From: a virus
Virus record (IMG/VR): IMGVR_UViG_3300044630_000566
Span: 1 to 35,952 of that record
DNA: 35,952 bases
Strand: one strand, 5' to 3'
Under the pieces are notes generated by a model. The model saw only the letters and a list, made by a program, of their open reading frames with translations, ran no database searches and was not told the DNA's origin. The translations under genes were made by a program, and so were the position numbers. Positions 864 to 21,079 of this stretch are shown here, piece by piece. How positions within the stretch are numbered: position 1 is the stretch's first letter; every line of letters starts with the position of its first letter.

Positions 864-1514
864 ATGAGTTTCTTATTACCAGCAGCACCAGCCATAGCCG
901 GATCAACGGCAGCAGCAGCAACGACAGCGTTTGGCTCTACAGCTTTTTGGGCTGGGACAGCAGCGGCTGCTCCTATAGTATCGTCTACTGTTGTGCCATC
1001 AATATTGCTGTCATCAACACCATCATTCTTTGGTAGCCTTAGTAGTGCCTTTAGTGCTATTAAGCCATTTATGGAAGTTATTTCTCCCATAACAACAGCA
1101 CTACAAGGTGTTAATGCTATACAAACTGGTCAAACACAAGCTAGTATGTATAAACTACAGCAACTACAATTAAGAGCAAAGATAGATAATGATAGACTTA
1201 ATCTTACAAGACAAAGCAATGACGTATTAAGAAGATTAATGCAGTCTAATGCATCAGCGGCAGCACGTGGTTATGCTGGCGGAGTTAAAAGCTTTGAGGG
1301 ATCAAGCGCATTACTTATGGATGTTAATGCAAAATATGCTGGAAACGATATGGAAACTATTCAACAAAACATTGCAACATCCGGCACGTATGGACAAATA
1401 CAAGACAGCATGTTGGCAACAGCGTCAGACAAAGCAGTAACAGGATCTTATTATGATGCATTTGCAAGTGTTGGCAAAGCAGCTTATTTATATAGCACAT
1501 TGAAAACAGCTTAA
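864..1514 (+). CDS. Internal virion protein, T7 gp14-like
   Basis: 216 residues. The first about 55 residues are a very Ala/Ser/Thr-rich stretch of low complexity, then comes a hydrophobic segment, and residues about 90-150 form a Gln/Arg-rich helix with coiled-coil character. T7 gp14 (196 residues) has the same size, the same place directly after tail tubular protein B, and an Ala-rich membrane-active character. It is ejected into the host outer membrane during infection. The start ATG is preceded by AGGGGA at 852-857. Assignment rests on size, composition and order rather than on a diagnostic motif. Confidence 0.6.
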   Translation: MSFLLPAAPAIAGSTAAAATTAFGSTAFWAGTAAAAPIVSSTVVPSILLSSTPSFFGSLSSAFSAIKPFMEVISPITTALQGVNAIQTGQTQASMYKLQQLQLRAKIDNDRLNLTRQSNDVLRRLMQSNASAAARGYAGGVKSFEGSSALLMDVNAKYAGNDMETIQQNIATSGTYGQIQDSMLATASDKAVTGSYYDAFASVGKAAYLYSTLKTA

Positions 1515-1523
1515 GGAAAAGTT

Positions 1524-3734
1524 ATGGCAGATAGTCCACGTTATCAAAGAGCAAATCTAGTTTATGCTGATATGCCTAATATTCAGCCAGTAGATCTGCA
1601 AGAGCAACTTAATGCAAATAAACGCATTGGCGCTGCATTAGATCAAATGACTAGCATTACTACTGACATTGGCAAGAAATATGCAATAGAAGCAGCTGCT
1701 AAGTATAGCCTTGATAACCCTGTTACTCAAGAACAACTTATTGACGCCCAAAAGAATAATAGCAATCCAATTGCCAAGGATTTAAAAGGCGGCACAATAT
1801 TTAATGATACGCTTAAAAAAGTTTATGCTCAACAAGCATCAGCAGAGTTTACTAACATTGCCTATACTCACTTTGAAGATGTAGATAAAAGAGTTAAAGA
1901 TGGTGAATTAACAAATCCAGATGATATTAAGCAAGCGCTTAACTCAGTTATTGAGCCACAAAAAAATGTATTAAGTCAAATAGATGTAGAAACAGGATTG
2001 TCTTATGACGCTAAATTAAAGTCATATGCTAACACATACTATAAAGGTGCTTTAAACGAGCTTGATAAACAAGCTAGACAACGTATAGATTTAATGGCTG
2101 TTGATACAATGAATGTTCAAACTAAGATGTTTGAAAAGGATATTGTTAATCAATACGATCCTATTGTGTTAAAAGGATTGCTTGACTCAAGACTTCAAGA
2201 TGGTGATCTTACATTTAAACAAGGATCTCATAGAGAAGCTTATAACAATCAATTACGCAAACAATTAGACTATGCAATCAATAATAAGTTTGCAGAAGAT
2301 ATGGCTAATACTTTTGGTAGCGAAGGCGCTGCTATGCAATCATTGGAAAAAGGTAAGGCTGGTAAATGGACAGCATTTTGGAATGACAAAACACCAGATG
2401 AAAAAGATGACCTTAGACAATTTGTATTAAAAGAATTGCGCATTAAGAATTCTGGAGCAGAAGAATTTGATCGTCAATATGCATCTAAACTTAGCGCTGC
2501 AAATGATATGCTTACAAATGGATATCAGCCAGATGCAAAGTTATCTCAATGGCTTATTAATAATAGTGGATCATTAAAACCAGACAGTGCTACAAAAGCA
2601 TCAGCTACTGCATTTAACATGAAGCTAGATCAATTTAACAAACTTAATGGCATGAGCATGCAAGATAGGCAAGTCTATGAAGATTCTATGCTTGCTAAGA
2701 TTGGCCCTAATATGACTGCTGAAAATTGGCAAGTATATTCATTTATTAAGAAGTCTAATGAAAACTTTAACTCAAATATTAAAAAAGACTTTGTAGCTAC
2801 AATGAAAACTCAAAGTGCATTTAGAGCTACATCTTTAAACTTTGCAGCACCAGACGATGTATTTCAAACGGAAGTAGATAATAGAGTTAAGCTTGCAAAC
2901 CAATTTGGAACAATGAATGGGATTAAGCCAAAATATTTAGATGAAGGCGAAGTGCAATCATTACAAATGCAATTAGATGCAGCCAAACCAGATGAAAAGG
3001 TAGCTATGCTTGGACGTATTGCTAAATCATTTGGCGGCGGTTCATCAGAAGTATTTAAACAACTATCCCCTAAAGATCCAGTATCTGCTCACATGGGTGT
3101 TCTTTATGCAAATAAATCTAATGACTTTATTATTCGTAACGCTGCTAAAGGCCAAGAGATTCTTAAATCTGGATATAAGCCTGTAGAAGAAGCAACACAA
3201 AAACAAATTGCTATTAAGGATAATATTGGAAGTGCATTTTATGCTGCACCAGAAAGTTATAATGATGTTGTTAAAACAGCAGATGCATTATATGCTGAGT
3301 ATGCTATGCGCAATAATCTTTCTGCATTTAATGCCACAGTTTATGGGGAAAAACTACAAGAAGCTTCTGGACGAACATCTGGGGCAGATGGTAAATACTA
3401 TGGTGGCGTTGTTAAATATAACAAAGAAAAAGTTATTATACCAAACTCAGTTCCGCAAGACGATTTTGAAGATTTAATGGATAAAGCTACTATTGCAGAC
3501 TTAAGGTATTCATCTGACAATTTTGCGAACCGCGCAAATACTAACGGACTTTTTGCGCAAAACGGAAAAGAATATACATCTGATAAGATTAAAGATGCTA
3601 AATTAGTTCCAGCTGGCAAAGACAATTACATGCTTACTATTGATGATAGTCCATTTATTCTTAAAGGCGGATCACCTTTATATATTAACATAGATGTTTT
3701 ATACAAGAAGCTTAAAAGCGAGAAACGTATTTAA
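1524..3734 (+). CDS. Internal virion (core) protein, T7 gp15-like position
   Basis: 736 residues, close to the 747 of T7 gp15, and in the same position between the gp14-like and gp16-like genes. The sequence is mostly charged, helical and rich in Lys, Asp, Asn and Gln, without transmembrane segments or an obvious enzymatic motif. In T7 the gp15 protein lines the ejected channel in the periplasm. An AAGGAAAAG ribosome site precedes the ATG. The last base of the stop codon is the first base of the next ATG (TAATG at 3732-3736), suggesting translational coupling. The function is inferred from gene order and size. Confidence 0.6.
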   Translation: MADSPRYQRANLVYADMPNIQPVDLQEQLNANKRIGAALDQMTSITTDIGKKYAIEAAAKYSLDNPVTQEQLIDAQKNNSNPIAKDLKGGTIFNDTLKKVYAQQASAEFTNIAYTHFEDVDKRVKDGELTNPDDIKQALNSVIEPQKNVLSQIDVETGLSYDAKLKSYANTYYKGALNELDKQARQRIDLMAVDTMNVQTKMFEKDIVNQYDPIVLKGLLDSRLQDGDLTFKQGSHREAYNNQLRKQLDYAINNKFAEDMANTFGSEGAAMQSLEKGKAGKWTAFWNDKTPDEKDDLRQFVLKELRIKNSGAEEFDRQYASKLSAANDMLTNGYQPDAKLSQWLINNSGSLKPDSATKASATAFNMKLDQFNKLNGMSMQDRQVYEDSMLAKIGPNMTAENWQVYSFIKKSNENFNSNIKKDFVATMKTQSAFRATSLNFAAPDDVFQTEVDNRVKLANQFGTMNGIKPKYLDEGEVQSLQMQLDAAKPDEKVAMLGRIAKSFGGGSSEVFKQLSPKDPVSAHMGVLYANKSNDFIIRNAAKGQEILKSGYKPVEEATQKQIAIKDNIGSAFYAAPESYNDVVKTADALYAEYAMRNNLSAFNATVYGEKLQEASGRTSGADGKYYGGVVKYNKEKVIIPNSVPQDDFEDLMDKATIADLRYSSDNFANRANTNGLFAQNGKEYTSDKIKDAKLVPAGKDNYMLTIDDSPFILKGGSPLYINIDVLYKKLKSEKRI

Positions 3735-6205
3735 TGGGCATTATTAATAGAGATATAAATATACAGCCATACCTATCCAACCAGTCTGTTTTAGGTGGAG
3801 AAAGCACTGGGCCATTTGAAAATATGAGAGCTGCTTATGACGCTGCATCATCATATGTATTGGGTAGCGAATCAAGAACAATAGCGCTTGATGAAGTGTT
3901 TGCGCCATTAAGACAAAAGGTTATTGACAGATCTAAAGTGTCAGATTTAGACAGGGTAAATATGTTTGGTGCTGACTCTAGAAATCAATATGCATGGGCA
4001 GATAGAGATTATCCAAAGTATATTAATAACACTCTTGATTATATTAAGCAAAATCCAGATCTATTTCCAGAGCCAGAGTTTCAAGGATTAACTTATGACA
4101 TGCTAGAAGAAAAGGCAATTTTAAGCTCAAGAAAAAAAATAGAAGAACAAGAGGAAATTGCATCAAGAAAAACTTTTTGGGGTGGTGTAGGGGAATTTGT
4201 TGGCGGCGTAGCTGGCAATTGGTCTACACTAGATTCATTATCATTGGCTGTCAATCCAGAATTAATTGTTATTAAGCCAACATGGCCTATAGTAAACAGA
4301 ATGTTTAACAATGTTATTGTTAATACAGGAGTTGAAGCTGCTAAGTATCCAGATATTAAGTCATGGCAAGAAAAAGTTACTGGCAAGGAGTATGGGTTTA
4401 AAGAGTTTTTACAACATGAAAAAGAAGTAGCTATAGGAACTATTGCATTAACTGGCGCTTTTGAAGGTATTGCTAGAGTCCCATATAAAAAAGGATATCG
4501 CTGGACTAAAGATACAATGCTTGAGGGAGTTGAGAAGCTTCAAGATGTATATACAAGAAAATATTTAGATAATGCTGATATTTACATTACAGATACAGCA
4601 ACTGGTAAAAAATGGAATGTGTCTGTTGGTGGAAAACAAACGCAAGAAGAAATTAAACAAGAATTAATGAAAGATATTAATGCTATTAAAGCTCAAGATA
4701 GCATTGATAATTTTATTAGTGAAACTAACCCTATAGCAGATGATGCTGGAGATATTGAACATATAAAGCGTCTTAACCAAGTTAATGAAGCAATGAGAAC
4801 TGGAAACTTTGATAAACTTCCTAAAGACACTCCAACAACTAATACGATTACAGACATAAATCATTTTGATCGTGCTAACCCAAATGTTAAATTCTATAAT
4901 CCTAAAGACATTAAAGTAGATGCAGAAACATTTCAATTTAAAGCTGGTGGCGATGTAGAAGGTGTTACTGAAAGGCTACAGGGCGTCACTCAATGGGATC
5001 CTATTAGCGCTAATACGGCCATAGTTTATGAAAAAGCTAATGGTGAAACATTTATTGTGGATGGGCATCAAAGATTAGCATTGGCTAAACGTATTACTGC
5101 TACAGATCCAGCACAGAAAATTGAGTTTATTGCATTTCCATTAAAAGAAGTAGATGGCGTATCAGTAGAAGAAGCAAGAGTTATTGCTGCTATGAAAAAC
5201 ATTAGAGAAGGAACAGGCACAGCTATTGATGCTGCTAAAGTGCTTAAGATAGATCCATCTTTAATTGAAACATTACCACCTACATCTGCATTGGTAAAGC
5301 AAGCTAATGGTCTTATTAGATTATCTGATGATGCATTTAGATTAATTACTAATCAAGTTATACCAGAAAACTATGGCGCTATTGTAGGTAATATAATGAC
5401 AGATCCTACAGAGCAGATTGCTGCTATTGAAATGCTTAAGCGATTAGATCCGTCAAACATAAGACAAGCAGAGCAAATTATTCGTCAAATGAAAGATACG
5501 GGATTTGTCAAATCAACACAGGAAAGTTTGTTTGGAGATGAAGTTATATCAGAAAGTTTATTGCTAGAGCGAGCAAAGATATTAGATGCTGGCACTGCAA
5601 TGTTTAAAACAGACAAGCTAGTATTCAAGAATCTTATGGACAATGCTAATAAGATTGAGGAATCTGGTAATATCTTAAACAGAAACAACAACGCAACTAA
5701 TGAGGAAATATATGCCAAAGCAATCGAAATCACAAGGGCAAATGCCAATATCAAAGGATCCATATCAGAATCCCTCACTCGCCTCGCAAGAGAATTTAAA
5801 GAAGGCGGAAGCAAAGGTTTACAAGGATACGCCCGCCAGTTCGCAGATGATGTCAAACGATCAATTGAAGATGGCAGTTACGAGAGGGTTCCAAATGGCG
5901 GACTTGGCAGCTATGGCGCAATTGAGAAGGAAGCAGTTACGCTCAGTCCAGAAGCAAAACAAGACCTAAGTTTATTTGATGAGGGCATTGGATCTAAAGG
6001 TGAAGTAGAGCAGATTAAAGTTTTAGATGCTGCAACAAAAGAAGAATTGCAAATGGCCCCAGAGATGAATGATGCTGTTATTCATGTAGATGATATTGAT
6101 CCAAATACAGGGATGCCATTTTCTAAAACACTTACCATGAAAGAAATCATGGATGATCTTGCTCAAGACGAAAAAGCAATTAATAGATTGAAAGGTTGTA
6201 TTTAA
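3734..6205 (+). CDS. Internal virion protein with ParB/Srx-like domain
   Basis: 823 residues in the slot where T7 encodes the large core protein gp16. Residues 443-447 read DGHQR followed by LALAKR, embedded in a segment of about residues 380-490 that looks like the ParB N-terminal/sulfiredoxin fold (signature G-H-x-R in a strand-turn-helix). Such domains occur in phage polyvalent proteins that are injected with DNA. The N-terminal about 300 residues contain Gly-rich and hydrophobic stretches (about 149-185). I see no lytic transglycosylase motif. Start and stop overlap both neighbours by 1 base. It may bind or nick DNA or use CTP as ParB does. That is inference. Confidence 0.6.
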   Translation: MGIINRDINIQPYLSNQSVLGGESTGPFENMRAAYDAASSYVLGSESRTIALDEVFAPLRQKVIDRSKVSDLDRVNMFGADSRNQYAWADRDYPKYINNTLDYIKQNPDLFPEPEFQGLTYDMLEEKAILSSRKKIEEQEEIASRKTFWGGVGEFVGGVAGNWSTLDSLSLAVNPELIVIKPTWPIVNRMFNNVIVNTGVEAAKYPDIKSWQEKVTGKEYGFKEFLQHEKEVAIGTIALTGAFEGIARVPYKKGYRWTKDTMLEGVEKLQDVYTRKYLDNADIYITDTATGKKWNVSVGGKQTQEEIKQELMKDINAIKAQDSIDNFISETNPIADDAGDIEHIKRLNQVNEAMRTGNFDKLPKDTPTTNTITDINHFDRANPNVKFYNPKDIKVDAETFQFKAGGDVEGVTERLQGVTQWDPISANTAIVYEKANGETFIVDGHQRLALAKRITATDPAQKIEFIAFPLKEVDGVSVEEARVIAAMKNIREGTGTAIDAAKVLKIDPSLIETLPPTSALVKQANGLIRLSDDAFRLITNQVIPENYGAIVGNIMTDPTEQIAAIEMLKRLDPSNIRQAEQIIRQMKDTGFVKSTQESLFGDEVISESLLLERAKILDAGTAMFKTDKLVFKNLMDNANKIEESGNILNRNNNATNEEIYAKAIEITRANANIKGSISESLTRLAREFKEGGSKGLQGYARQFADDVKRSIEDGSYERVPNGGLGSYGAIEKEAVTLSPEAKQDLSLFDEGIGSKGEVEQIKVLDAATKEELQMAPEMNDAVIHVDDIDPNTGMPFSKTLTMKEIMDDLAQDEKAINRLKGCI

Positions 6206-8736
6206 TGGCATTTAAAGACTGTATTGTTAATGGCCTAAAAGATGGCGATTTAACTCCAGAACAAGCTAAAGCTGCTCAAGATGTATTTGAGCAACGTGAA
6301 GCTATGCATAAGAATACTATGGGCGATAGTGCTGCATCAGCTAAGGCAGCTCAAGAAACTATTGAAATTCTTGACTTTGATAGATTGCACAAGAAACGCG
6401 TATTGCTATTGCAAAAAGAAAAACAACAAGACATATCTAAGAAGCTATTTGGCCAAGAAGGTTATCGTGGTGGCAGAGATCCTGGCATGGGGGCTAAAGC
6501 TTTAATAGCTAAGGGTGATCCATTCTCTACATACAGCAATGTAGAAGCTAGACAAGCATCTATATTTGGTCAATTCCAATCTCAAATATCAGATATATTA
6601 GCTACATTTAGAGCAAGAGGACCATTAGGTTTACACTCTAATGTAAATACACTGCATGATGTAGTTCGTGAATTATGGGGAACTAATACTGGCAATGCTT
6701 CCGCTAGAGAAATGGCAGAGGCATGGTCCAAAGTAGGTGAGATGGCTCGTCAAATGTATAACGAAGCTGGTGGGGCTATTCCAAAATTAGATACATGGAG
6801 ATTGCCGCAATCTCATAACATGATGGCTGTAATGAAAGCTGGTCAAGAAACATGGGTTAAGTTTGTAACTCCATTGTTAGATAACACAAAGATGATTAAT
6901 GAACGCACAGGAAAATCATTTACTCCACAAGAGTTAGACTTGGCTTTAAATGAAGTGTTTAGAACTATTGGCGAAGATGGCTTTAATAAGTTAAAACCAA
7001 CTGGTGCTTTATATACAGGCCATAGATCATTAGCTAAACGCTATATGGATCACAGATTCTTGCAATTTAAAACGGCTGATGATTGGATGAAGTATCAAGA
7101 ATCATTTGGCAATCCAGATACATTTGCATCTATGAATCAATACTTACATAGAATGTCGCATGACATAGCTATGATGCAAGTGCTTGGCCCAAACCCTCAT
7201 GCCACTATGAACTTTATTAGACAAAGCGTTATGAAAGATGCGCAAGAGCTAAAGGTTAAATTACAAGATCAAAATATTGCAGCAAAAGCAGAAAAAAATC
7301 TTGACGAAATGGATGAGTTATTCCAGTTATATAATGGATCAGCTTATGCATCAGCAGATAGTGCTACATTTAAAATACTTGGTTTTAATGTCAATGTTCC
7401 AAGAACTTTGCAAGGCACAAGAAATATTATTAATTCTGCATTTTTAGGTAGCACAGCTATTACGTCTTTATCAGACTTGGGATTCCAAAAACATACAGCT
7501 ACACAATTAGGTATAGCATTTGGACCATTATTTAAACGTGTATTTAAAAACCTTAATCCATTAAATGTTGAGGAGCGTGGAAAGATTGCATTGAGAGCCG
7601 GACTTATTGCAGACTCATGGATTGGGCTAGCTCAAACACAAGCGCGTTTTGCTGGAGAAATGACTGGACCACAAATTACGCAAAGATTTTCTGACGTTAT
7701 TATGAGAGCTTCTGGATTAACTGCATGGACACAAGCTGGCCGTCATGCATTTGGTATGGAGCTTATGGGAAACTTAAGCGATCTAGTTGGCAAATCATTT
7801 GACAACCTTGATCCTAAAATGCAAAAAGCATTAACAAGATATGGATTTGATAATACATCGTGGGATCTTATACGTCAGTCAGAATTATATAATCATCAAG
7901 GCGCTACATTCCTAAGGCCAGAAGAAATACGTTTAGCTACTCATATGCCTAAAGATCAAGCACAAGAGTTAGCATTGCGATTCTTGGATATGGTTAATAC
8001 AGAAATAGACTATGCAGTTCCTACTGTTGGGTTACGTGCCAAAGCTACATTGACTGGAGGCACAAAGCCAGGAACAGTGCCGGGAGAAATTGTTCGTAGT
8101 TTCTCTATGTTTAAAAACTTCTCTGTTCAAGTTCTTTATACACATTTATGGAAATTAATGTCAGAAGCGACAGCATTTAAAAAGGCTGGATCATTTGCTG
8201 ATCTAGTTATTGCTACAACTGCTATGGCAGCACTATCAATGCAACTTAAAGAAATGGCTAATGGTAGAGATCCAAGAGCGATAGATACTCCAGAGTTTTG
8301 GGGAGCTGCATTCTTGCAAGGTGGTGGAATGGGTATCTGGGGTGACTTCCTATTTAGTAATGTTAATCGTTTTGGTGGTGGATTGGAAGATACTATTGCT
8401 GGCCCAGTTATTAATATGGCTAACTCAGTTAAGAATCTTACCTATGGCAATGTTAAACAATTAATACAAGGCGAAGAAACTAACTTTGCTGGAGAAAGCA
8501 TAAGGATGTTAGAAACATATATGCCAGGCAAAACATTATGGTATGGAAAGCTTTTATTCCAGCATGGATTATTTGAAAGATTACATCTATATGCTGATCC
8601 TAAATATCAACAAAGACTCAATAGAATGCAAACTAAATACCTTAAAGAAACAGGCCAGCATTATTGGTGGCGTCCAGGCGAAGAAAAGCCAGATAGATTG
8701 CCAGAGATATCTAGTGAAACTTTATTGACACAATAG
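6205..8736 (+). CDS. Large internal virion/core protein
   Basis: 843 residues from the ATG at 6205, which shares a base with the upstream stop and has AAAGG at 6191-6195. A TTG three codons earlier (6196) is open but lies inside the ribosome site. The protein is mostly helical, with long amphipathic stretches and a Gly/Phe/Trp-rich zone around residues 690-735. It is the last of four consecutive large or Ala-rich genes between tail tubular protein B and the fibre, so it is probably part of the ejectosome together with its neighbours, perhaps sharing the role of T7 gp16. I recognise no motif. It ends 56 bases before the tail fibre. Confidence 0.6.
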   Translation: MAFKDCIVNGLKDGDLTPEQAKAAQDVFEQREAMHKNTMGDSAASAKAAQETIEILDFDRLHKKRVLLLQKEKQQDISKKLFGQEGYRGGRDPGMGAKALIAKGDPFSTYSNVEARQASIFGQFQSQISDILATFRARGPLGLHSNVNTLHDVVRELWGTNTGNASAREMAEAWSKVGEMARQMYNEAGGAIPKLDTWRLPQSHNMMAVMKAGQETWVKFVTPLLDNTKMINERTGKSFTPQELDLALNEVFRTIGEDGFNKLKPTGALYTGHRSLAKRYMDHRFLQFKTADDWMKYQESFGNPDTFASMNQYLHRMSHDIAMMQVLGPNPHATMNFIRQSVMKDAQELKVKLQDQNIAAKAEKNLDEMDELFQLYNGSAYASADSATFKILGFNVNVPRTLQGTRNIINSAFLGSTAITSLSDLGFQKHTATQLGIAFGPLFKRVFKNLNPLNVEERGKIALRAGLIADSWIGLAQTQARFAGEMTGPQITQRFSDVIMRASGLTAWTQAGRHAFGMELMGNLSDLVGKSFDNLDPKMQKALTRYGFDNTSWDLIRQSELYNHQGATFLRPEEIRLATHMPKDQAQELALRFLDMVNTEIDYAVPTVGLRAKATLTGGTKPGTVPGEIVRSFSMFKNFSVQVLYTHLWKLMSEATAFKKAGSFADLVIATTAMAALSMQLKEMANGRDPRAIDTPEFWGAAFLQGGGMGIWGDFLFSNVNRFGGGLEDTIAGPVINMANSVKNLTYGNVKQLIQGEETNFAGESIRMLETYMPGKTLWYGKLLFQHGLFERLHLYADPKYQQRLNRMQTKYLKETGQHYWWRPGEEKPDRLPEISSETLLTQ

Positions 8737-8792: not shown

Positions 8793-11700
8793 ATGGCTGA
8801 TTATGCAATAACCAACGTAGCAAGACGAGTAGTATACACTGGATCTGCGGGTGTAGGGCCTTATGCCTTTACATTCCCTGTATTAATAAATACAGATATC
8901 GCAGTATACAAGAATACAACACTTCTTACTTTAACGACAGACTACACTGTAACCATTAGTGGAACTACTGGTCAAGGATCGATCACATTAGTATCCGCTG
9001 CTACAGGCGCTGATCGTATTACTATCGTAGGTGCTAGATCTATTGAGCGTTCAACAGACTTTGTAACTGGTGGCGACTTCTTTGCTAACACACTTAATAC
9101 AGAATTAGATTCAGAAGTAATCTTTGTTCAGCAAATTGCTGAAACAGCAGAGCGTTCTATTAAAGCGCCTGTTACAGATCCTACATCTATTGACATGACA
9201 TTGCCAGTTAATACAACTCGTGCTAATAAGTTCTTATCATTTAACTCTACTGGCAATCCACAAACATTAGATGCTATTGGAACATACAAAGGTAATTGGG
9301 CTGCAAGCGTAGCTTATGTATTACAAGATATCGTTAAGGATACATCTAATAACAATATCTATATTTGTATTACTGCACATACCTCTACAGGCTCACAACC
9401 AATTTCAAGCAATGCTGACGTAGCTAAATGGTCTTTAGTTGTAGACTCTGAATCTGCTTCAACTAGTGCTACTAACGCTGCTTCTAGTGCTAGTGCTGCA
9501 TCTACATCAGCTACTAACGCTGCTGCTTCTGCTTCTACTGCATCTACTCAAGCAAGCAATGCTTCTACGTCCGCATCTAATGCTTCAACATCTGCTACCA
9601 ATGCAGCCTCATCTGCAAGTGCTGCTTCTACATCTGCTACCAATGCTGCTTCTAGCTATGATGCTTTTGATGACAGATATCTTGGTGCTAAAGCATCTGC
9701 TCCAAGTGTAGACAATGATGGTAATGCTTTATTAACTGGCGCTTTATATTGGGATACAGTAGCAACTCAGTTATATGTATGGACTGGATCTGCATGGAAT
9801 GCGGCTGCATTTAATGCATCAGGTGCAGTAACTTCATTTCAAACATCATTAAGTGGATTAACACCAAGCACATCATCAACAGGAGCTATTACACTAGGGG
9901 GAACATTAGGAACTGCCAATGGTGGCACGGGTTCAACGTCTACAACTTATGTTAATTTAGCAAGCAATGTAACAGGAACTTTACCAGTAGCCAATGGTGG
10001 AACAGGCGCTTCTACACTTACTGCTAATAACGTATTATTAGGCAATGGAACTTCATCTCCTACTTTTGTAGCTCCTGGCACAAATGGTAATGTTTTACAA
10101 TCTAATGGTACAACATGGACTAGTGCTACTATAGCCACTCCTAGTACTGCTGGTGGGACTACAACACAATCAGGTTCATTTACACTAACTTCAGCAAGTA
10201 CTACTGTACATTACGTTACACCTACCACAACAGGCCAAATTTGTACTTTACCAGATGCTACAACTATAGCTTCAGCTGGCACAAGTATCTTTAAGATTTA
10301 CAATAATAGCCAATATTATTTTAAGATTAATGACAGCACAGGCACTACAGTTTCATATGTAGCTCCTTTTACCAATGTCGCTTGTAATTTAATTTCCAAA
10401 GCTACAGCCGCTGGTACATGGACATTTGATGATGGTTTATTTGTAGGAGTTGAAGCAATTAAATTCTTTAATTTTCCAGATGCAGCTGCAGGCATTAGTG
10501 GTCAATTTCAAATATGCACATTAACTTCTACTAAAGAACTTATTATTATACCTACCACTACTAAAGTGTATGGTATTGTTTATGATTCTAGCACCCAAAC
10601 TTATGGAACAACTGCAACTATTAGAACCACAGCACCAGCAACTGGATGGACTTACAATGTAAGGGGTTTTCCAATATCAGATACTTCTGCTCTAGTAGTT
10701 TCTTGTAGTGCAACAACTGCTTTTGAAGCAACTGCAATATCTATATCAGGCACTACTATTACAGTAGGTACACCAGCAACAGCAACATTAGGTGCAACTT
10801 TTAATGGTTTTCTAGCTAATATTTTTGTATCTAATACATCTAGTTATATTGTTTGTTATGATAAATCATCAGGCGGCACAGCATTTAGAGCAATTACAGT
10901 ATCAGGACTTGTACCTACTATTGGGTCTGAGGTAACCGATACTGCTACATTAGCGTATTCAGTAATTGATTTAGGTGGTAGTGCTTTTTTAAGTATAGGA
11001 ACAAATGGTACTACATCATTATATAATAAACCTTATTCTGTATCAGGTACAACGATTACAGGCGGTACACAAACCACAACAACTATAGTAAGTGCTGAGT
11101 ACCCAAGAAGTACATATTTATTTAGTTCTGGAAGGGTAGGTATACTATATAAATCATCAGCTACAGTTTGGTCTGGAGGTGTGGTTTCTGTTGCTTCTAA
11201 CGTAGCTACTCTATCATCTGTAACTTTAACAAACTCTACTACATACCCACAAGCTATTGGATATGGGGCTGGAGGAAATAATCTTATATGTGCTTTTTAT
11301 AATCTATCTACTGCTGCAATGGTTTATAACGTTTTAACTGATAGTTCAGGAACTGCTGCAGCTGGAACTGCTGTATCTGATAGTGCTATTAGTACTAGTG
11401 GACAATCCATAATAAAAGTTGCTAATATTAACAATACAACTAATGAAATAACTTTTGCAAATGCAGAGAGTTATGCTTATAATAATTCAACTGTACTTTT
11501 TACAAAAGTTGGAGTAAGTTCTGGAAATCCTGTAGTAAATAGTAAAAGTGTTAGTGCAAATGCGGGTGGCATAAATAGTTATTTTCTCATTAATCAAAAC
11601 TTTTCTCCAATAACTCCTTTATATCAAAATGGATCTGTGGGTGGGTTTTTAAATCTTACAAAAGGAAGTGTAATTCCTTTAGCCACTTCTACACCATCGT

Positions 11701-13643: not shown

Positions 13644-13902
13644 AGAAGTAAAGAAAATGAGTAATGTTGAAACACGCATTACATTAGTAGAAGATAGAGT
13701 TAAAGCTGCTGACAATCGCATGATTGAATTAGCTATGTCTAACAACAGAGCTTATGAGAAAGCATCAGAAGCATTTGCTACATCTAAAGAAACAGCAGCT
13801 ATCATTAAAGGATCACAAAGAGAAATTGATGTATCTCTTAGCGCAGTGCGTGAGGAGATGAAAGCATTACGCAAATCAACGATCAATCCATTGGCCAAGT
13901 AA
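13501..13902 (+). CDS. Small membrane protein with coiled coil
   Basis: 133 residues. Residues about 17-40 form a transmembrane helix and residues about 43-125 a long charged coiled coil, probably on one side of the membrane. The ATG lies 143 bases before the end of the upstream gene, in another frame, and the whole transmembrane helix is encoded in that overlap. The stop shares a base with the next ATG. Size and topology would fit an inner-membrane spanin or an accessory holin, but no Rz signature is recognised. Confidence 0.75.
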   Translation: MATQENKKYTLNLSSQMILGIILSVLVPTSGAVYYGITLFNDLTSTIEEVKKMSNVETRITLVEDRVKAADNRMIELAMSNNRAYEKASEAFATSKETAAIIKGSQREIDVSLSAVREEMKALRKSTINPLAK

Positions 13903-14243
13903 TGAAGCTATTAACCAAACAAAACTTGCGTAAGATGTATGCTTGTTTTGTTGGGCTACCTCCGTTCAATGGCTACAAGATGCCAGCACCGCACAAGGTT
14001 AATTTTAGTATCATCAATACTAAAGGTGAAGTGCTTGGATACTTTCTTACAGAGCCTACTAGAATACAAATAGATATCTCTAATGATACATACCTAAAGA
14101 TATCTGAAACACTTATGCATGAGATGATTCATTGTATGCTTTGGTATCATGGACACAATGACTTTGATGCACACGAAAAGAAGTTTAACAAATATGTTAA
14201 TATCATCTGTGACCTATACGGATTTAACAAAGAGGAGTTTTAA
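13902..14243 (+). CDS. SprT-like zinc metalloprotease
   Basis: 113 residues. H73-E74-M-I-H77 is the HExxH zinc site, within the helix LMHEMIHCMLW, and H91 in AHEKKF is a good third ligand, the pattern of the SprT/Spartan protease domain. The usual C-terminal zinc ribbon is absent, so only the minimal catalytic domain is present. Cellular SprT proteins cut DNA-protein crosslinks. In this position, directly before holin and lysozyme, it could instead act on an envelope or virion protein. Starts at the base shared with the previous stop. Family call is firm, substrate unknown. Confidence 0.8.
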   Translation: MKLLTKQNLRKMYACFVGLPPFNGYKMPAPHKVNFSIINTKGEVLGYFLTEPTRIQIDISNDTYLKISETLMHEMIHCMLWYHGHNDFDAHEKKFNKYVNIICDLYGFNKEEF

Positions 14244-14744
14244 ATGTTTAGTATTATCAGTGGTATATTAGGGTTTGCTACAAGCGGGCTACCAAGTCTG
14301 CTCGGATTTTTTCAGCAAAAAGGTGACCAAGCACATGAACGTGAGATGGCTAAGTTACAGAACGAACAAGCTATGCGTATGGCAGAGAAAGGTTTTGTAT
14401 CTCAAGAGAAGATTGCAGCTATTGAATTAGAAGGAACATACGCAGAAACATACGCACAAGAACGTGAAGCATTATATGCACATGACACTAAGCTAGTAGA
14501 AGGTGCATCACAGTGGGTCAAGACTCTTAATGCCTGTGTCAGACCATTCGTTGCATTTACTTTTGTAGGCTTACTTGTATTCGTTGATGTAGCTGGCTTC
14601 ATATGGGCAGTTAAATCTACTGGTGGATTCACACCAGAATCTATGGATGCTATATTCTCTAGCGATGAGATGAGCATTGTAGCCTCTATCATTGGATTCT
14701 ACTTTGGCTCTCGCACATGGGAAAAGAAACGTGAAAGTATCTAA
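14244..14744 (+). CDS. Holin, 3-TM (gene-transfer-agent type)
   Basis: 166 residues with three hydrophobic segments: about 1-23, 98-122 (RPFVAFTFVGLLVFVDVAGF) and 145-160 (IVASIIGFYFG). The central region is a charged helix. The C-terminal half, with an Arg-Pro before the second segment and FYFGSRTWEK at the end, is the pattern of the 3-TM holin family first named from gene transfer agents. It would make the inner-membrane hole that lets the following lysozyme reach the wall. Begins on the base after the previous stop and overlaps the lysozyme start by 14 bases. Confidence 0.85.
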   Translation: MFSIISGILGFATSGLPSLLGFFQQKGDQAHEREMAKLQNEQAMRMAEKGFVSQEKIAAIELEGTYAETYAQEREALYAHDTKLVEGASQWVKTLNACVRPFVAFTFVGLLVFVDVAGFIWAVKSTGGFTPESMDAIFSSDEMSIVASIIGFYFGSRTWEKKRESI

Positions 14745-15183
14745 GCGTGGTATCGAACTTATTAAACATTTTGAAGGTGTGCGTAGTCGGCCCTATCGTT
14801 GTGCTGCAAACCTGTATACTGTGGGTGTTGGTCACCTTATCGGCGATGGCAAACATTTGCCTGATTCTTGGAACAGAACTTTTACGCAAGAAGAAATAGA
14901 TGGACTTCTTAAATCAGACCTCAATCGTTTCGAGTTGGGAGTATCTAAGATGCTACCTAACGTGCGCCTTAGACAATGTGAATTCGATTGCTTGGTTTCT
15001 TTTGCCTTCAATCTTGGCTTGGGGACATTTCAAAGATCAACACTCCGTCAAGCGTTGCTTCGTGGCGATAAAGAAGCGGCTATGGAATCGCTCTTAAAGT
15101 ATTGTCGTGCTGGTGGACGTATACTTAAAGGACTTCAACTAAGACGTGAAGCAGAAGCCAAGATGTTTGTTGCAAACTATTGA
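14731..15183 (+). CDS. Endolysin, GH24 lysozyme
   Basis: 150 residues from GTG at 14731. A TTG at 14692 lies deep inside the holin gene and is less likely. The catalytic signature is E15, eight residues, C24, five residues, T30, then VGVGHLI, the E-8-C/D-5-T spacing of phage muramidases with Cys in place of Asp, as in some R-type lysozymes. It hydrolyses peptidoglycan. No signal peptide or SAR segment, so it relies on the holin. The start lies within the holin 3' end, as usual for a coupled lysis pair. Confidence 0.9.
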   Translation: MKVSKRGIELIKHFEGVRSRPYRCAANLYTVGVGHLIGDGKHLPDSWNRTFTQEEIDGLLKSDLNRFELGVSKMLPNVRLRQCEFDCLVSFAFNLGLGTFQRSTLRQALLRGDKEAAMESLLKYCRAGGRILKGLQLRREAEAKMFVANY

Positions 15184-16221: not shown

Positions 16222-17577
16222 TTACAACTGACTTATACGCTTACCTATCCATCTCATCACAGGAACTGCCATAGAATTACCTAATGCTTTATATCGAGTA
16301 GTATCGCTTGATGTTGGAGTGTTAGTATAGCCATCCGGAAAGCCTTGTAACCTTTCACATTCCATTGGAGTTAGTCTACGCACTCTCATTTGCTGCATAA
16401 CCTTTGGACCGCTATGAGTAGAGCTTCCCCCAGCTGCGGTCATTGTTGCGGTTACATCTCCCTGTATAGTTCCATTGTATGTATCTACGGCAACTCCAGG
16501 TCTTTGACATGCAGTTAAAGTTCCAGACAGTTCTCTTTCAAATTTCATTTCATCTGGTCTAGCATTAACATGAAATCCATGAGCAACTGCTACCTGGTTA
16601 TCACCCATAACTGCTCTTAATGTAGGAGATAGTTCTTCTGAAAACCTAGATGGATTGCCTTCACGTTTAGCAATGCCTGGTTCAAAGCCATAAGCTATTC
16701 CATGCACTCCTGTTGCATTTAATGTATACATTACTTCTTCTGAGTATCCATTACCATTGCCACCATTATGAGCTTGTCTACCAATAATGTTTTCTGCTAT
16801 AGCATATGACTTAGGTTCTAATACTAAAGGTTTAATATCTAAATCTGCACCGCCTGTTCCATAACTAGCAGTTAATGTTTTAGATACATCCTTGAGATCA
16901 ATAGCACTTACTCCGTTAGATACTAAGACTGCATTGCCTTCTGATCTTGCTGGATTGTAACTGCTGTAGCTTGAAGGGCTTGCCTTAATGCAGTTGGCAA
17001 TTTCTTTTCCCTCTTGTCTGCTCGGTGTAATATCCCTAGACAAGCTTTCGGACTCAAATAATACTTTGGTAGCACTTCTCCAGTCTCCAAAACATCCGAC
17101 AACGAACACACGTCTGCGTCTTTGTGGCACTCCGAAGTATTGAGCGTCAAGAACTCTGTAGGCGAACCCATACCCGAGTTCAGCCATCCCTTTAAGGAGA
17201 CAGGCAAAGTCCTCTCCTCCGTTACTAGAGAGAACACCTGGGACATTTTCCCATAGTAACCATTTTGGTTTAAACTTTTCTGCAATTCCAAGATAGGTAA
17301 GCATAAGATTTCCTCTTGGATCTTCAAGTCCTTTTCTAAGTCCAGCGACTGAGAATGATTGACATGGTGTTCCTCCGACCAAAAGTCCGATTGATTCATT
17401 TAGATTCCATTCTTTATAGTTAGTCATGTCCCCGTAATTGGTTACATGAGGGTAGTGATGATTTAATAATTGACTTGGAAATTTCTCAATCTCTGAGAAT
17501 CCAACTGGCTTCCAACCTAGTTCATGCCATGCTACTGTTGCTGCTTCTATACCGCTACATACTGATAAATAGTTCAT
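16222..17577 (-). CDS. DNA (cytosine-5) methyltransferase
   Basis: 451 residues with the ordered C5-methylase motifs: SAM-binding VCSGIEA near the start, catalytic GGTPCQSF (Cys72), ENV at 110-112, QRRRR at 152-156, and the C-terminal RRLTPMECERLQGFPDGY and RYKALGNSMAVPV. It transfers a methyl group from SAM to cytosine, probably to protect phage DNA from host restriction or to mark it. The target-recognition region (about 170-390) is large and contains five T-L/M-x-A modules, as seen in other phage C5 enzymes. No partner endonuclease is present. The minus-strand ATG is preceded by AAAAGGAAA. Last gene of the minus-strand block. Confidence 0.93.
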   Translation of the reverse strand: MNYLSVCSGIEAATVAWHELGWKPVGFSEIEKFPSQLLNHHYPHVTNYGDMTNYKEWNLNESIGLLVGGTPCQSFSVAGLRKGLEDPRGNLMLTYLGIAEKFKPKWLLWENVPGVLSSNGGEDFACLLKGMAELGYGFAYRVLDAQYFGVPQRRRRVFVVGCFGDWRSATKVLFESESLSRDITPSRQEGKEIANCIKASPSSYSSYNPARSEGNAVLVSNGVSAIDLKDVSKTLTASYGTGGADLDIKPLVLEPKSYAIAENIIGRQAHNGGNGNGYSEEVMYTLNATGVHGIAYGFEPGIAKREGNPSRFSEELSPTLRAVMGDNQVAVAHGFHVNARPDEMKFERELSGTLTACQRPGVAVDTYNGTIQGDVTATMTAAGGSSTHSGPKVMQQMRVRRLTPMECERLQGFPDGYTNTPTSSDTTRYKALGNSMAVPVMRWIGKRISQL

Positions 17578-17613: not shown

Positions 17614-17961
17614 TTAATAAAATATATGATTGTTAATTACTACTTTTATAGGCTTGCCCCACTGGTTAGGTAAAGCTACGCTATGAAAATGTGTGCTGCC
17701 CTTACTTGTATCTTTAATCTTTTTGTTTAGAATTTTTTCAGCTAAATCTAGATATGGTCGCAACTTCTGCATGTCATAATCTTTTGGCTTAGTAGTCCAT
17801 TCAAATTGGTATGGCCTATAAACTTCAAGACATACTTTGTTGCGGTCATAGTTAGCTCTGCGATACAAAACATAACCCACTGCTACTTGCCCACTAACTG
17901 GCTCTGCACCAGCTTCGTGAGCAATAGTTAATGCCATACACATCATTGCTGCACTTATCAT
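17614..17961 (-). CDS. SleB-like cell wall hydrolase
   Basis: 115 residues covering the core of the Hydrolase_2/SleB family: N-terminal AHEAGAEPVSGQVAVGYVLYRR, central PYQFEWT, then STHFHS and the C-terminal VINNHIFY. The Glu residues near the start of the family motif supply the catalytic acid, and related enzymes are peptidoglycan lytic transglycosylases. The N-terminus is hydrophobic enough to be a weak signal or anchor. It is encoded with recombination genes, apart from the lysis cassette on the other strand, so it may serve entry, exclusion or another stage. Overlaps the upstream gene by 4 bases (ATGA). Confidence 0.8.
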   Translation of the reverse strand: MISAAMMCMALTIAHEAGAEPVSGQVAVGYVLYRRANYDRNKVCLEVYRPYQFEWTTKPKDYDMQKLRPYLDLAEKILNKKIKDTSKGSTHFHSVALPNQWGKPIKVVINNHIFY

Positions 17962-19398: not shown

Positions 19399-20345
19399 AT
19401 ACGATCCCTTATAGATAGTTTAGATTGACGAATAACATAACCTTCTTTTGCTGGCACAGTTTTTGCTGGCTGTGCTTTATACTGACGCATAGGCCATGAG
19501 ATCTTGTAACGACCAGCATGACATATCTCTTTATCGCGCATCTGATCCATAATGTTGCGCTGTAATCTATCAATAGCTTCTTCTGCTTCTGCAATAGCTT
19601 CTCTTAAAGTAATGATCTTCTCAGCTTGTATTTCAATCTCTGGAATCTCAATAACTTCTTTTTCTGCATGGTCAAAGATCCTTGTTGCTTCTGCACTTGT
19701 TGCTAATGGATACCAATCAATCTCAGAATCACGTTTATACTTTTCTATCTTCTCATTGAACTCCATAGCTGCTTGCCTTACCATATTGACTTGATCTTCA
19801 TTGTATTCATACACAAAGATTCTTAATGTAGTGCCTTTGTATAAGACACAAAGAGCGCCCCATGAGGCTTCCATGATGTCCATCTGACCTTGTAATTGAA
19901 TGACACCACGATAAACTGCTGGTGTATTTTCAACTTCTTGACCGGTAAGCTTGGCTTCAAGTATGCCTGTGCCACTTAACTTGATAGAGTCTTTATTCAT
20001 TACATAAATACCCTTATCAATATCTGTATATATGACACTATCGTTGCCTACCACTGTGCCATCAAGACTGCAAGCTAATGGAATATCCTTGTGAAAGTAT
20101 GCTTTATCGTGTTCTAAATCATACGATTCAAGTCCGAGTCTTGTTGCTGACTCCTCTAGAATTGTTTTCTCTAGTTTGTTTCCCCAATCCATAGCTTCAT
20201 TACTATTAAATTCTGGTTCTTTGCCATGCAATGAATCTATTGAAATCTTAAGTTCATCATTTGCCGTGCGATATTTGCTAAAGCCCAACACTGCCGGGAG
20301 TCTACTGCATGACAAAATGTCATTAGGTGTTAATTTGCCTACCAT
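19395..20345 (-). CDS. YqaJ-type recombination exonuclease
   Basis: 316 residues. The N-terminus has LSCSRLPAVLGFSKY and MDWGNKLEKTI (Glu59). The PD-(D/E)xK centre is D95 in ACSLDGT and E130-A-K132 in GILEAKLTG, followed by VIQLQGQM, as in YqaJ/lambda exonuclease-type nucleases. It would resect double-strand ends to give 3' tails for the ERF protein. The C-terminal about 100 residues carry a coiled coil (AEKIITLREAIAEAEEAIDRL). Overlaps the recombinase stop by 7 bases. Ribosome site AAGGATAT. Confidence 0.85.
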   Translation of the reverse strand: MVGKLTPNDILSCSRLPAVLGFSKYRTANDELKISIDSLHGKEPEFNSNEAMDWGNKLEKTILEESATRLGLESYDLEHDKAYFHKDIPLACSLDGTVVGNDSVIYTDIDKGIYVMNKDSIKLSGTGILEAKLTGQEVENTPAVYRGVIQLQGQMDIMEASWGALCVLYKGTTLRIFVYEYNEDQVNMVRQAAMEFNEKIEKYKRDSEIDWYPLATSAEATRIFDHAEKEVIEIPEIEIQAEKIITLREAIAEAEEAIDRLQRNIMDQMRDKEICHAGRYKISWPMRQYKAQPAKTVPAKEGYVIRQSKLSIRDRI

Positions 20346-21034
20346 AGATTGATATCCTTATTTAATTTATGAATGTTATTCATCAAACGATACACACTTC
20401 CTTGAGTCCACTTCTTACGCCTATAAGTTAATATGCCTAGTGCATTGAGATCTTCTGCATACTTTTGGGCATCAAAACATTGATTTCTACCTTTAACTAT
20501 TTGTATGACATCAATCATACCAAGTGAAAACTCTGCAGCCTTGCGCCTTGTTGCATCGCCTCCAGCCTGGGAAATTCTTTTAATGTCTTTTGGTGGCGCA
20601 CCTAACTTGATGCCACGAGCTTTTGCTGCCTGGAGTGCATTCTTTGTATTGATTGAAATTTGTCGTCTTGTTTCTTCATTTAATACTGCTCTAATATGAA
20701 GTTCAAAGATAGATGCTTGAGGGCTTTCAGCTACAACGATGCTATTAGGTGGTAATTCTTCCAATAGTTTTGACATTAATGCAACTGACCTGGTAAGGCG
20801 ACACTGTTTAGCTACTAATAACTTACAACTTCGATCATGCTTTAACATGTCCAAAGCTACAATTAAATTAACTCTATCATTGTGACTTCCAGATTCTACA
20901 TCGGTGAGTTCTGTAACGATCTCAACGCCTTGTTGCTGTGCATATGAAAAGCAGATTTGTTTTTGGGCTTCTAAACCTAAACCGCTCTGCCCTTGTTTGT
21001 CTGTTGATACTCTATAATAAGCTATAAATTTCAT
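20339..21034 (-). CDS. Small serine recombinase (resolvase/invertase class)
   Basis: 231 residues from the ATG at 21034. A GTG at 21052 is in frame but lacks a ribosome site, whereas AAAGGAC precedes the ATG. The catalytic N-terminus reads FIAYYRVSTDKQGQSGLGLEAQ (Ser10, Arg8), with the usual resolvase core and long helix, then a short C-terminal helix-turn-helix (about 190-225). At this length it is a resolvase/invertase rather than a large serine integrase. It could resolve multimers, invert or excise a segment, or integrate. See the 16-bp direct repeats for a possible substrate. It follows a promoter at 21080-21109. Confidence 0.88.
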   Translation of the reverse strand: MKFIAYYRVSTDKQGQSGLGLEAQKQICFSYAQQQGVEIVTELTDVESGSHNDRVNLIVALDMLKHDRSCKLLVAKQCRLTRSVALMSKLLEELPPNSIVVAESPQASIFELHIRAVLNEETRRQISINTKNALQAAKARGIKLGAPPKDIKRISQAGGDATRRKAAEFSLGMIDVIQIVKGRNQCFDAQKYAEDLNALGILTYRRKKWTQGSVYRLMNNIHKLNKDINLW

Positions 21035-21079
21035 GCTCTTATGTCCTTTCACGGATTAAAAAAAAGATAACGAATTATG

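Follow-up and report, generated by a model that had tools for sequence, protein, structure and literature searches.

A ParB-type nucleotide and helix-turn-helix module in a candidate ejection protein of a T7-style phage

On how the ejection proteins of podophages hold or move the first DNA in the cytoplasm, passages of a review discuss a clamp role of T7 gp16-C, call its cytoplasmic DNA binding universally conserved, and propose gp16-C as a genome clamp around 850 bp (PMC8954989). That ParB-superfamily domains occur in injected phage proteins is already known from the polyvalent-protein theme: in the relevant passages of Iyer et al. (2017), DdrB-like ParB domains are described in injected polyvalent proteins, and nucleoside triphosphate (NTP)-regulated DNase activity or NTP sensing is suggested for them (PMC5512222). 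Here we describe a different case in an IMG/VR virus contig (record IMGVR_UViG_3300044630_000566). This contig of 35,952 bases, called the window throughout, contains a frame (3734-6205, plus strand) which encodes a protein of 823 aa. By sequence profiles, a module of about 300 aa in this protein (residues ~381-709) is homologous to ParB across both the nucleotide and the helix-turn-helix (HTH) domains, since the profile scores are significant for the whole module and for each half-domain separately.

For the profile comparison, 188 distinct modules, each spanning 230 model positions or more, were clustered at 75% identity, which gave 86 non-redundant modules. Bacterial ParBs were drawn from module-bearing genomes, where 13 of 14 genomes matched TIGR00180. 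A motif search gave a protein from 12 of 17 loci (L253-L269), and the profile of these proteins widened the ParB set to 30 segments. Comparison of the 86 modules with the 30 segments gave Prob 96.2, an expectation value (E) of 2.4e-9 and a score of 68.1, collinear across 152 columns. The alignment paired GHxR with GERR, KNI with ENI, and the segment of the second helix of the HTH with its ParB counterpart. The comparison became strong only once both alignments were widened, and therefore shuffle and half-domain controls were run. Among 60 column-shuffled ParB alignments, the highest score was 19.4. The nucleotide halves alone scored 32.0 (Prob 80.3, E 1.4e-5; best of 100 shuffles 18.3). For the HTH halves alone the score was 41.8 (Prob 93.5, E 2.2e-7; best of 100 shuffles 13.5), while crossing the nucleotide with the HTH halves gave Prob of at most 4.2, over one column.

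The predicted structure agrees with the profiles. An AlphaFold2 model of the module, built on an alignment of 47 modules, reached a mean predicted local distance difference test score (pLDDT) of 85.8 and a predicted template modelling score of 0.65. Searched against the PDB with Foldseek, it gave 11 matches at E<=0.001, all of them ParB or Noc (top match Noc 7nfu_A, E 1.8e-5), and the first 30 rows were all ParB, Noc, Spo0J or KorB. VIA-align superposed the model on 7nfu_A with Z 9.1, a root-mean-square deviation (rmsd) of 4.3 and 190 aligned residues, and on 7bnr_A with Z 9.9, rmsd 11.6 and 162 aligned residues; we read the high rmsd of the latter as the two domains being set at a different angle. 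The Noc DNA-binding domain 6y93_A aligned on model positions 114-212 (Z 8.5), and sulfiredoxins on about positions 3-103. The weight of the fold assignment comes from the top rows belonging to one family and covering both domains in order, not from Z alone. Among predicted viral structures, the first ten matches were unnamed, uncharacterised or called "large polyvalent protein associated domain", and phage ParB/Spo0J-type proteins followed. The preliminary description of this DNA had pointed to the motif DGHQRLALAKR at residues 443-453, which stands exactly there (window 5060-5092), and had proposed a ParB/Srx-like domain that a structure unlike ParB would contradict. The predicted structure is like ParB, and the identity is enlarged from a motif to a nucleotide domain followed by an HTH. 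For the N-terminal region, the model matched nothing in the PDB at E<=0.001, and VIA Z values did not exceed 4.1.

A motif of this length would carry little meaning by itself, and it is conservation across the aligned family that gives DGHQRLALAKR its weight. Gln401, Gly444, His445, Arg447, Asn489 and Gly601 are invariant in 86/86 modules, and Lys403 and Asp499 are each kept in 85/86. Gly601 closes the QESLFG hairpin turn, whose Gly is thus present in every module; the QESLFG/QxxLF hairpin presumably resembles the bacterial beta-clamp binding pentapeptide. The protein is under purifying selection. Relative to the protein of locus L007, the ratio of nonsynonymous to synonymous substitution rates (dN/dS) was 0.079 in the nucleotide domain, 0.074 in the HTH and 0.042 in the rest of the module, versus 0.139 in the N-terminal region and 0.256 in linker plus tail, with 0.065 for the last 25 residues alone. 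Relative to L016, the respective values were 0.097, 0.167, 0.137, 0.358, 0.477 and 0.154, which are rough, as dS exceeded 1 in four of the six regions. The module and the short tail are the best-kept parts of the protein. Since the module is the best conserved part in a lineage without a cassette (see below), this suggests that it performs a function in its own right.

A relative is encoded in at least 546 of 599 candidate stretches of IMG/VR, and in 32 of 318 candidates from genomes of 84,980 prokaryote species. In PHROG, residues 392-694 matched phrog_10691 (E 1.4e-60, unknown function) and phrog_21 (E 8.4e-21, labelled portal protein). A tblastn search of 50,697 phage records (E<=1e-3) found relatives in 21: Dunaliella viridis virus SI2 (2 records), Ruegeria phage 45A6, an uncultured Nohivirus and 17 Prochlorococcus phages of the P-SCSP1 group. 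In none of the 21 did one place cover 80% of the window protein. The common part is the module or its start, extending in SI2 from the module through the C-terminus (389-823). The Ruegeria phage 45A6 relative (46.6% identity) is a protein of 3912 aa that also has LPD38, methyltransferase, helicase and GNAT domains. Two other kinds of match were set aside. NCBIfam, scanned with 47 modules, gave at best a lipase chaperone model (E 1.1e-5, 7 members, among the 25 of 31 families listed), which is taken as helical similarity; hmmsearch against the PDB gave four rows, the best of them a lipase chaperone matched on the helical part (E 0.008). Ubiquitin repeats matched in the PDB by phmmer with the 165-residue core (E down to 4.7e-9) are an artefact of repeat summing, the per-domain scores being below 4 bits in the alignments shown. 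With the whole protein, phmmer returned one irrelevant row.

The gene order places the module protein in the ejection-protein block. In the window, a gp14-like gene, a gp15-position gene, the module gene, a phrog_684 gene and a tail-fibre gene follow one another, and the ends of the module gene overlap the ends of both neighbouring genes. Among distinct ejection-type relatives at IMG/VR loci with a flank of more than 1.5 kb, a gp15-like gene lies upstream in 88 of 92. A phrog_684-like gene lies downstream in 75 of 76 ejection-type relatives, the exception (L090) carrying LPD38 in the same frame. The gp15-position protein itself has no PHROG family, only Pfam matches below cut-off and no profile match to T7 gp15. 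Elsewhere in the contig, PHROG identifies genes for a terminase, a head-tail adaptor and a major head protein, and there is also a gene for a T7-type capsid assembly protein. By this context and by analogy, the host of the gene is probably a T7-style short-tailed phage, and the protein is probably carried in the capsid and injected with the DNA. The preliminary description had assigned the protein to the position of gp16, which is right on gene order (14, 15, 16, 17 in T7), and had seen no transglycosylase: the 823-aa protein has no Pfam match of any kind at E<=1, and its gp14-, gp15- and phrog_684-type neighbours have matches below the curated cut-offs only. Its wider interpretation is supported in part; the ParB/Srx identity holds, and delivery with the genome is favoured by gene context and analogy. 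The authors of P-SCSP1 "speculate", in the passage concerned, that g20 and g21 of P-SCSP1a are internal virion proteins on the basis of gene size and position (PMC9860041). The available passages of the P-SCSP1u cryo-electron microscopy paper include none on an internal core protein, and those of the phiGT1 paper cover internal virion proteins without ParB.

What follows the module varies from one relative to the next. Of 128 frames that were complete and distinct, we compared the 79 of the ejection type (module at least 340 bits), with open-ended frames and 49 lower-scoring ones excluded. The post-module stretch measured either 98-182 aa (13 relatives) or 391-1040 aa (66 relatives), and most of the relatives compared have an additional cassette there. 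In 33 representative long slots, matches at E<=0.01 were to Zeta_toxin (11), RelA_SpoT (2), ParB_N (1) and LPD38 (1). When 20 slots were scanned singly, Zeta_toxin was found in 6, RelA_SpoT in one (L128) and LPD38 in one (L090), with ParB_N below the cut-off in one (L078); the other 11 gave no match or sub-cut-off matches only. The stretch in L078 (slot of 8931-11003) would be a second ParB_N-like one in that protein (E 0.0014, below the cut-off). The exchange is best seen in L082 (6936-9422) and L085 (6936-10124), which share 97.9% identity over 768 aa and 90% over the last 69 aa, with about 230 extra residues between these conserved parts in L085 that are absent from L082. The window protein is of the short kind, as are its nearest relatives with a readable end (L007/L008, L009, L016 and L017). 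The ParB-like module is the only domain recognised in it, its N-terminal region and tail having no assignment; many relatives carry further domains. The C-terminal tail and its Cys are kept whatever the slot contains, and could be a packaging or interaction tag. One further idea, that of a split polyvalent protein, was dropped, as the phrog_684 family gave nothing significant against the C-terminal parts of the 45A6, P-SCSP1f and L090 proteins or against the next gene of L004. In the open-licence literature, nothing was found on zeta toxins in phage polyvalent virion proteins.

Table 1. Coordinates of the features discussed, in window positions; residue numbers refer to the 823-aa protein.
Feature	Coordinates	Strand	Basis
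gp14-like internal virion protein	864..1514	+	phrog_418, E 1.6e-4
gp15-position protein, 736 aa	1524..3734	+	assigned from size and gene order only
Ejection-block protein with ParB-like module, 823 aa	3734..6205	+	frame translation and synteny
N-terminal region (1-380), helical, hydrophobic stretch ~231-250	3734..4873	+	model of 1-391, pLDDT 65.4; hydropathy
ParB/sulfiredoxin-like nucleotide domain (381-490)	4874..5203	+	model, Foldseek, VIA, profiles
DGHQRLALAKR (443-453), aligned with ParB GERRxRA segment	5060..5092	+	profile alignment, conservation
ParB-type HTH domain (491-590); segment aligned with ParB recognition helix PPTSALVKQANGLIRL	5204..5503	+	VIA 6y93_A Z 8.5; HTH-HTH profile Prob 93.5, E 2.2e-7
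C-terminal third of module (591-709), beta-hairpin with QESLFG turn and long helices	5504..5860	+	AlphaFold2 model; G601 in 86/86
QESLFG (596-601), hairpin turn	5519..5536	+	Qxx[LMI][FL]G in 49/86 modules
Linker (710-798), cassette site in relatives, empty in window protein	5861..6127	+	comparison with relatives
Conserved C-terminal tail (799-823), end QDEKAINRLKGCI	6128..6202	+	Cys within last 7 aa in 77/79 relatives
phrog_684 virion structural protein	6205..8736	+	570 bits, E 1.9e-170; ATG at 6205, alternative TTG at 6196
Small SprT-like (zinc metalloprotease type) protein near lysozyme gene	13902-14243	+	Pfam E 2.3e-6
Phage lysozyme	14692-15183		Pfam
C-5 cytosine DNA methylase	16222-17577	-	Pfam E 1.1e-58
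Hydrolase_2 protein, second peptidoglycan enzyme candidate	17614-17961	-	Pfam E 6.7e-13
Serine-recombinase (Resolvase) gene	20339-21052	-	Pfam E 2.2e-20

Taken together, we tentatively read the window protein as an ejection protein with a nucleotide-gated, ParB-type DNA-binding module that acts on the entering phage genome, a reading to which we give somewhat less than an even chance. The protein would ride in the capsid and leave together with the DNA. Once it has reached the cytoplasm and its nucleotide, the module would switch to a DNA-binding or DNA-enclosing form, and for the first minutes would keep hold of the incoming phage DNA and shield it. The scaffold bears, in many relatives, a separate cassette behind the module (a zeta-toxin kinase or others), which the window phage lacks. 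Of the roles suggested earlier for the domain, guarding or holding the incoming DNA would be the one we favour, and circularisation found no support. In a bolder form, a ParB-type clamp would belong to the ejection machinery of many short-tailed phages: open in the NTP-free capsid, it would take NTP in the cytoplasm as the signal of arrival and close around the genome as it enters, so as to retain, shield or ratchet it, and the QxxLF hairpin may contact the host replication clamp. In that general form we think the proposal unlikely.

Several findings weigh against the nucleotide-gated reading. With alignments that were still narrow, the profile comparison fell short of significance (Prob 1.1, E 0.046), and unrelated VIA rows reached Z 7.2, so that the Z margin of the ParB rows is modest. 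Pfam ParB_N (PF02195) was unmatched in the window protein at E<=10, and no Pfam ParB model appeared for 47 modules among the 25 of 39 families listed. The Glu of the ParB ENxQR segment is catalytic; the aligned position is Lys in the window protein, and in the 86 modules K (48), Q (21), T (6), R (5), S (2), N, V or I (1 each), 85 being accounted for. None of the 86 modules keeps the first Arg of GxRR: the window has GHQR, and the family has Q (56), N (25), H (4) or T (1) at this position, with no Arg. In ParBs and VirB, according to passages of one study, the C-motif, the GxRR motif and the P-loop bind the base, the triphosphate and the gamma-phosphate, and exchange of the GxRR Arg of VirB drastically reduces binding of cytidine triphosphate (CTP) (PMC10770331). 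Because both the GxRR Arg and the ENxQR Glu are replaced, CTP use cannot be assumed here. The same source lists sulfiredoxins and free-serine kinases as ATP-binding ParB/Srx-like proteins, so that the module could use CTP, ATP or no nucleotide at all. Judging from the range covered by the model, because the profile alignment begins only beyond this residue, invariant Gln401 may be the counterpart of Q52 in Myxococcus xanthus ParB; the Q52A variant of that ParB is hydrolysis-deficient (PMC12462528). The HTH domain is not basic, with a net charge of -2 in the window protein and a mean of -1.9 in the 86 modules versus -0.3 in 28 bacterial ParBs (the ranges overlap), and its DNA binding may have been lost. 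Finally, in the open-licence literature no report of a family member in any virion was found, and no virion proteomics of relatives; nothing was found there tying ParB to ejectosomes or to internal virion protein ejection, and nothing relevant on a CTP-dependent ParB injected from virions. The module derives from ParB and may work alike, and we refrain from classing it as a CTPase clamp.

These departures would suit a purely structural role, in which the ParB fold ties ejection proteins to the packaged DNA or to each other, or the scaffold to its cargo, with no switch driven by host nucleotide. The module sits between the N-terminal region, the slot and the tail in relatives of widely differing length, the GxRR and ENxQR residues are replaced across the family, and the HTH is not basic. 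However, the invariant G-H-x-R and N fall in the segments aligned to ParB GERR and ENxQR, and ahead of the aligned range stand an invariant Q and a near-invariant K; none of these residues would be needed by a pure scaffold, and we consider this role rather doubtful. An injected protein could also shield the incoming DNA from restriction or another defence, as P1 Dar/Ddr do, with a host defence enzyme as its target. This overlaps with the preferred reading, and the C-5 cytosine DNA methylase of the window (16222-17577) would fit restriction evasion. P1 DdrB has a ParB-superfamily domain (PF18763, residues 36-167), and a processed form of DdrB is described, in a passage of PMC5512222, as incorporated into the head. 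In our module, however, PF18763 is unmatched: the module gives no Pfam family at E<=10 with HMMER filters applied, where P1 DdrB as positive control gives E 2.1e-39 over residues 36-167. The module profile against the single sequence of P1 DdrB 1-430 gave Prob 0.3, and an anti-restriction role of this type appears unlikely.

A more aggressive function, that of an NTP-regulated, sequence-nonspecific DNase or nickase directed at host DNA or rival elements, has been proposed by Iyer et al. for ParB domains of the DdrB-like kind, and such activities of other ParB-like domains are reviewed in parts of PMC5512222. The present family keeps the entire HTH domain, and no mark of a nuclease site was noticed in the sequences, for which no dedicated test was made; a nuclease seems improbable. 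ParB homology itself would also fit an ordinary intracellular ParB, i.e., a partition protein or regulator made in infection or lysogeny and not injected. Against this stand the fixed place of the gene within the ejection block, its ends overlapping both neighbours, and an N-terminal region of about 350 aa ahead of the module. No parA neighbour was noticed by eye among the listed window ORFs, no ParA search having been made, and we regard this as very improbable, and the least probable of the explanations.

In the window, 16 open reading frames were scanned with Pfam (a 30-aa stretch was not counted). Two of them matched peptidoglycan enzymes, both outside the ejection block.

The closest described systems share parts of this arrangement. 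The CTP-gated clamps ParB, Noc and KorB (PDB 7nfu, 7bnk, 6t1f, 8qa9) have, by profile and fold, the same Srx-like nucleotide domain followed by an HTH, whereas the module has GH[Q/N]R as a rule in place of GxRR, in the window a Lys for the ENxQR Glu, and in addition a hairpin-and-helix part and its fusion into a phage ejection-block protein. The module is also similar to the pockets of sulfiredoxins (VIA Z 6.0-7.0) and SerK-type (DUF1015) proteins; DUF1015 was the best, if weak, Pfam match of 47 modules (E 0.002, 9/47 members, among the 25 of 39 families listed), and we take it to include SerK kinases. Sulfiredoxin/SerK-type pockets carry GxHR/DGHxR-like motifs, and to our knowledge these proteins have no ParB HTH domain. 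The direct homologues of the module, phrog_10691, phrog_21 and the 45A6 protein, are labelled unknown function, portal or hypothetical, and the window protein contains no further recognisable domain. The module is common in viral metagenomes and had no significant Pfam match in our scans.

T7 gp16 likewise follows gp14- and gp15-type genes and precedes the fibre gene. In contrast to gp16, the window protein has no transglycosylase, and the window phage has two genes (the module gene and the phrog_684 gene) where T7 has gene 16; the neighbouring proteins showed no profile similarity to T7 gp15 or gp16, in a comparison that covered these neighbours. The P1 DdrB and polyvalent proteins (PF18763) also belong to the ParB/Srx superfamily, are encoded by late genes beside virion genes, as PHROG and synteny indicate for the module gene, and have a multi-domain arrangement with effectors, which relatives of the window protein share. 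By contrast, the module has neither a PF18763 match nor significant profile similarity to DdrB, and a ParB-type HTH follows its nucleotide domain; it appears from its sequence to belong to a ParB branch other than the DdrB-like one, with the HTH kept. Encoded in the ejection block and with its pocket conserved, this ParB homologue is a candidate that can be assayed, with Q401, H445, R447 and N489 as the residues to address. If the proteins are injected, the exchangeable slot, empty and filled in the near-identical L082 and L085, looks like a natural cargo system. What is new with respect to the known systems is that a ParB nucleotide plus HTH module forms the constant core of a protein from the ejection block, combined with an exchangeable slot that is empty in the window phage.

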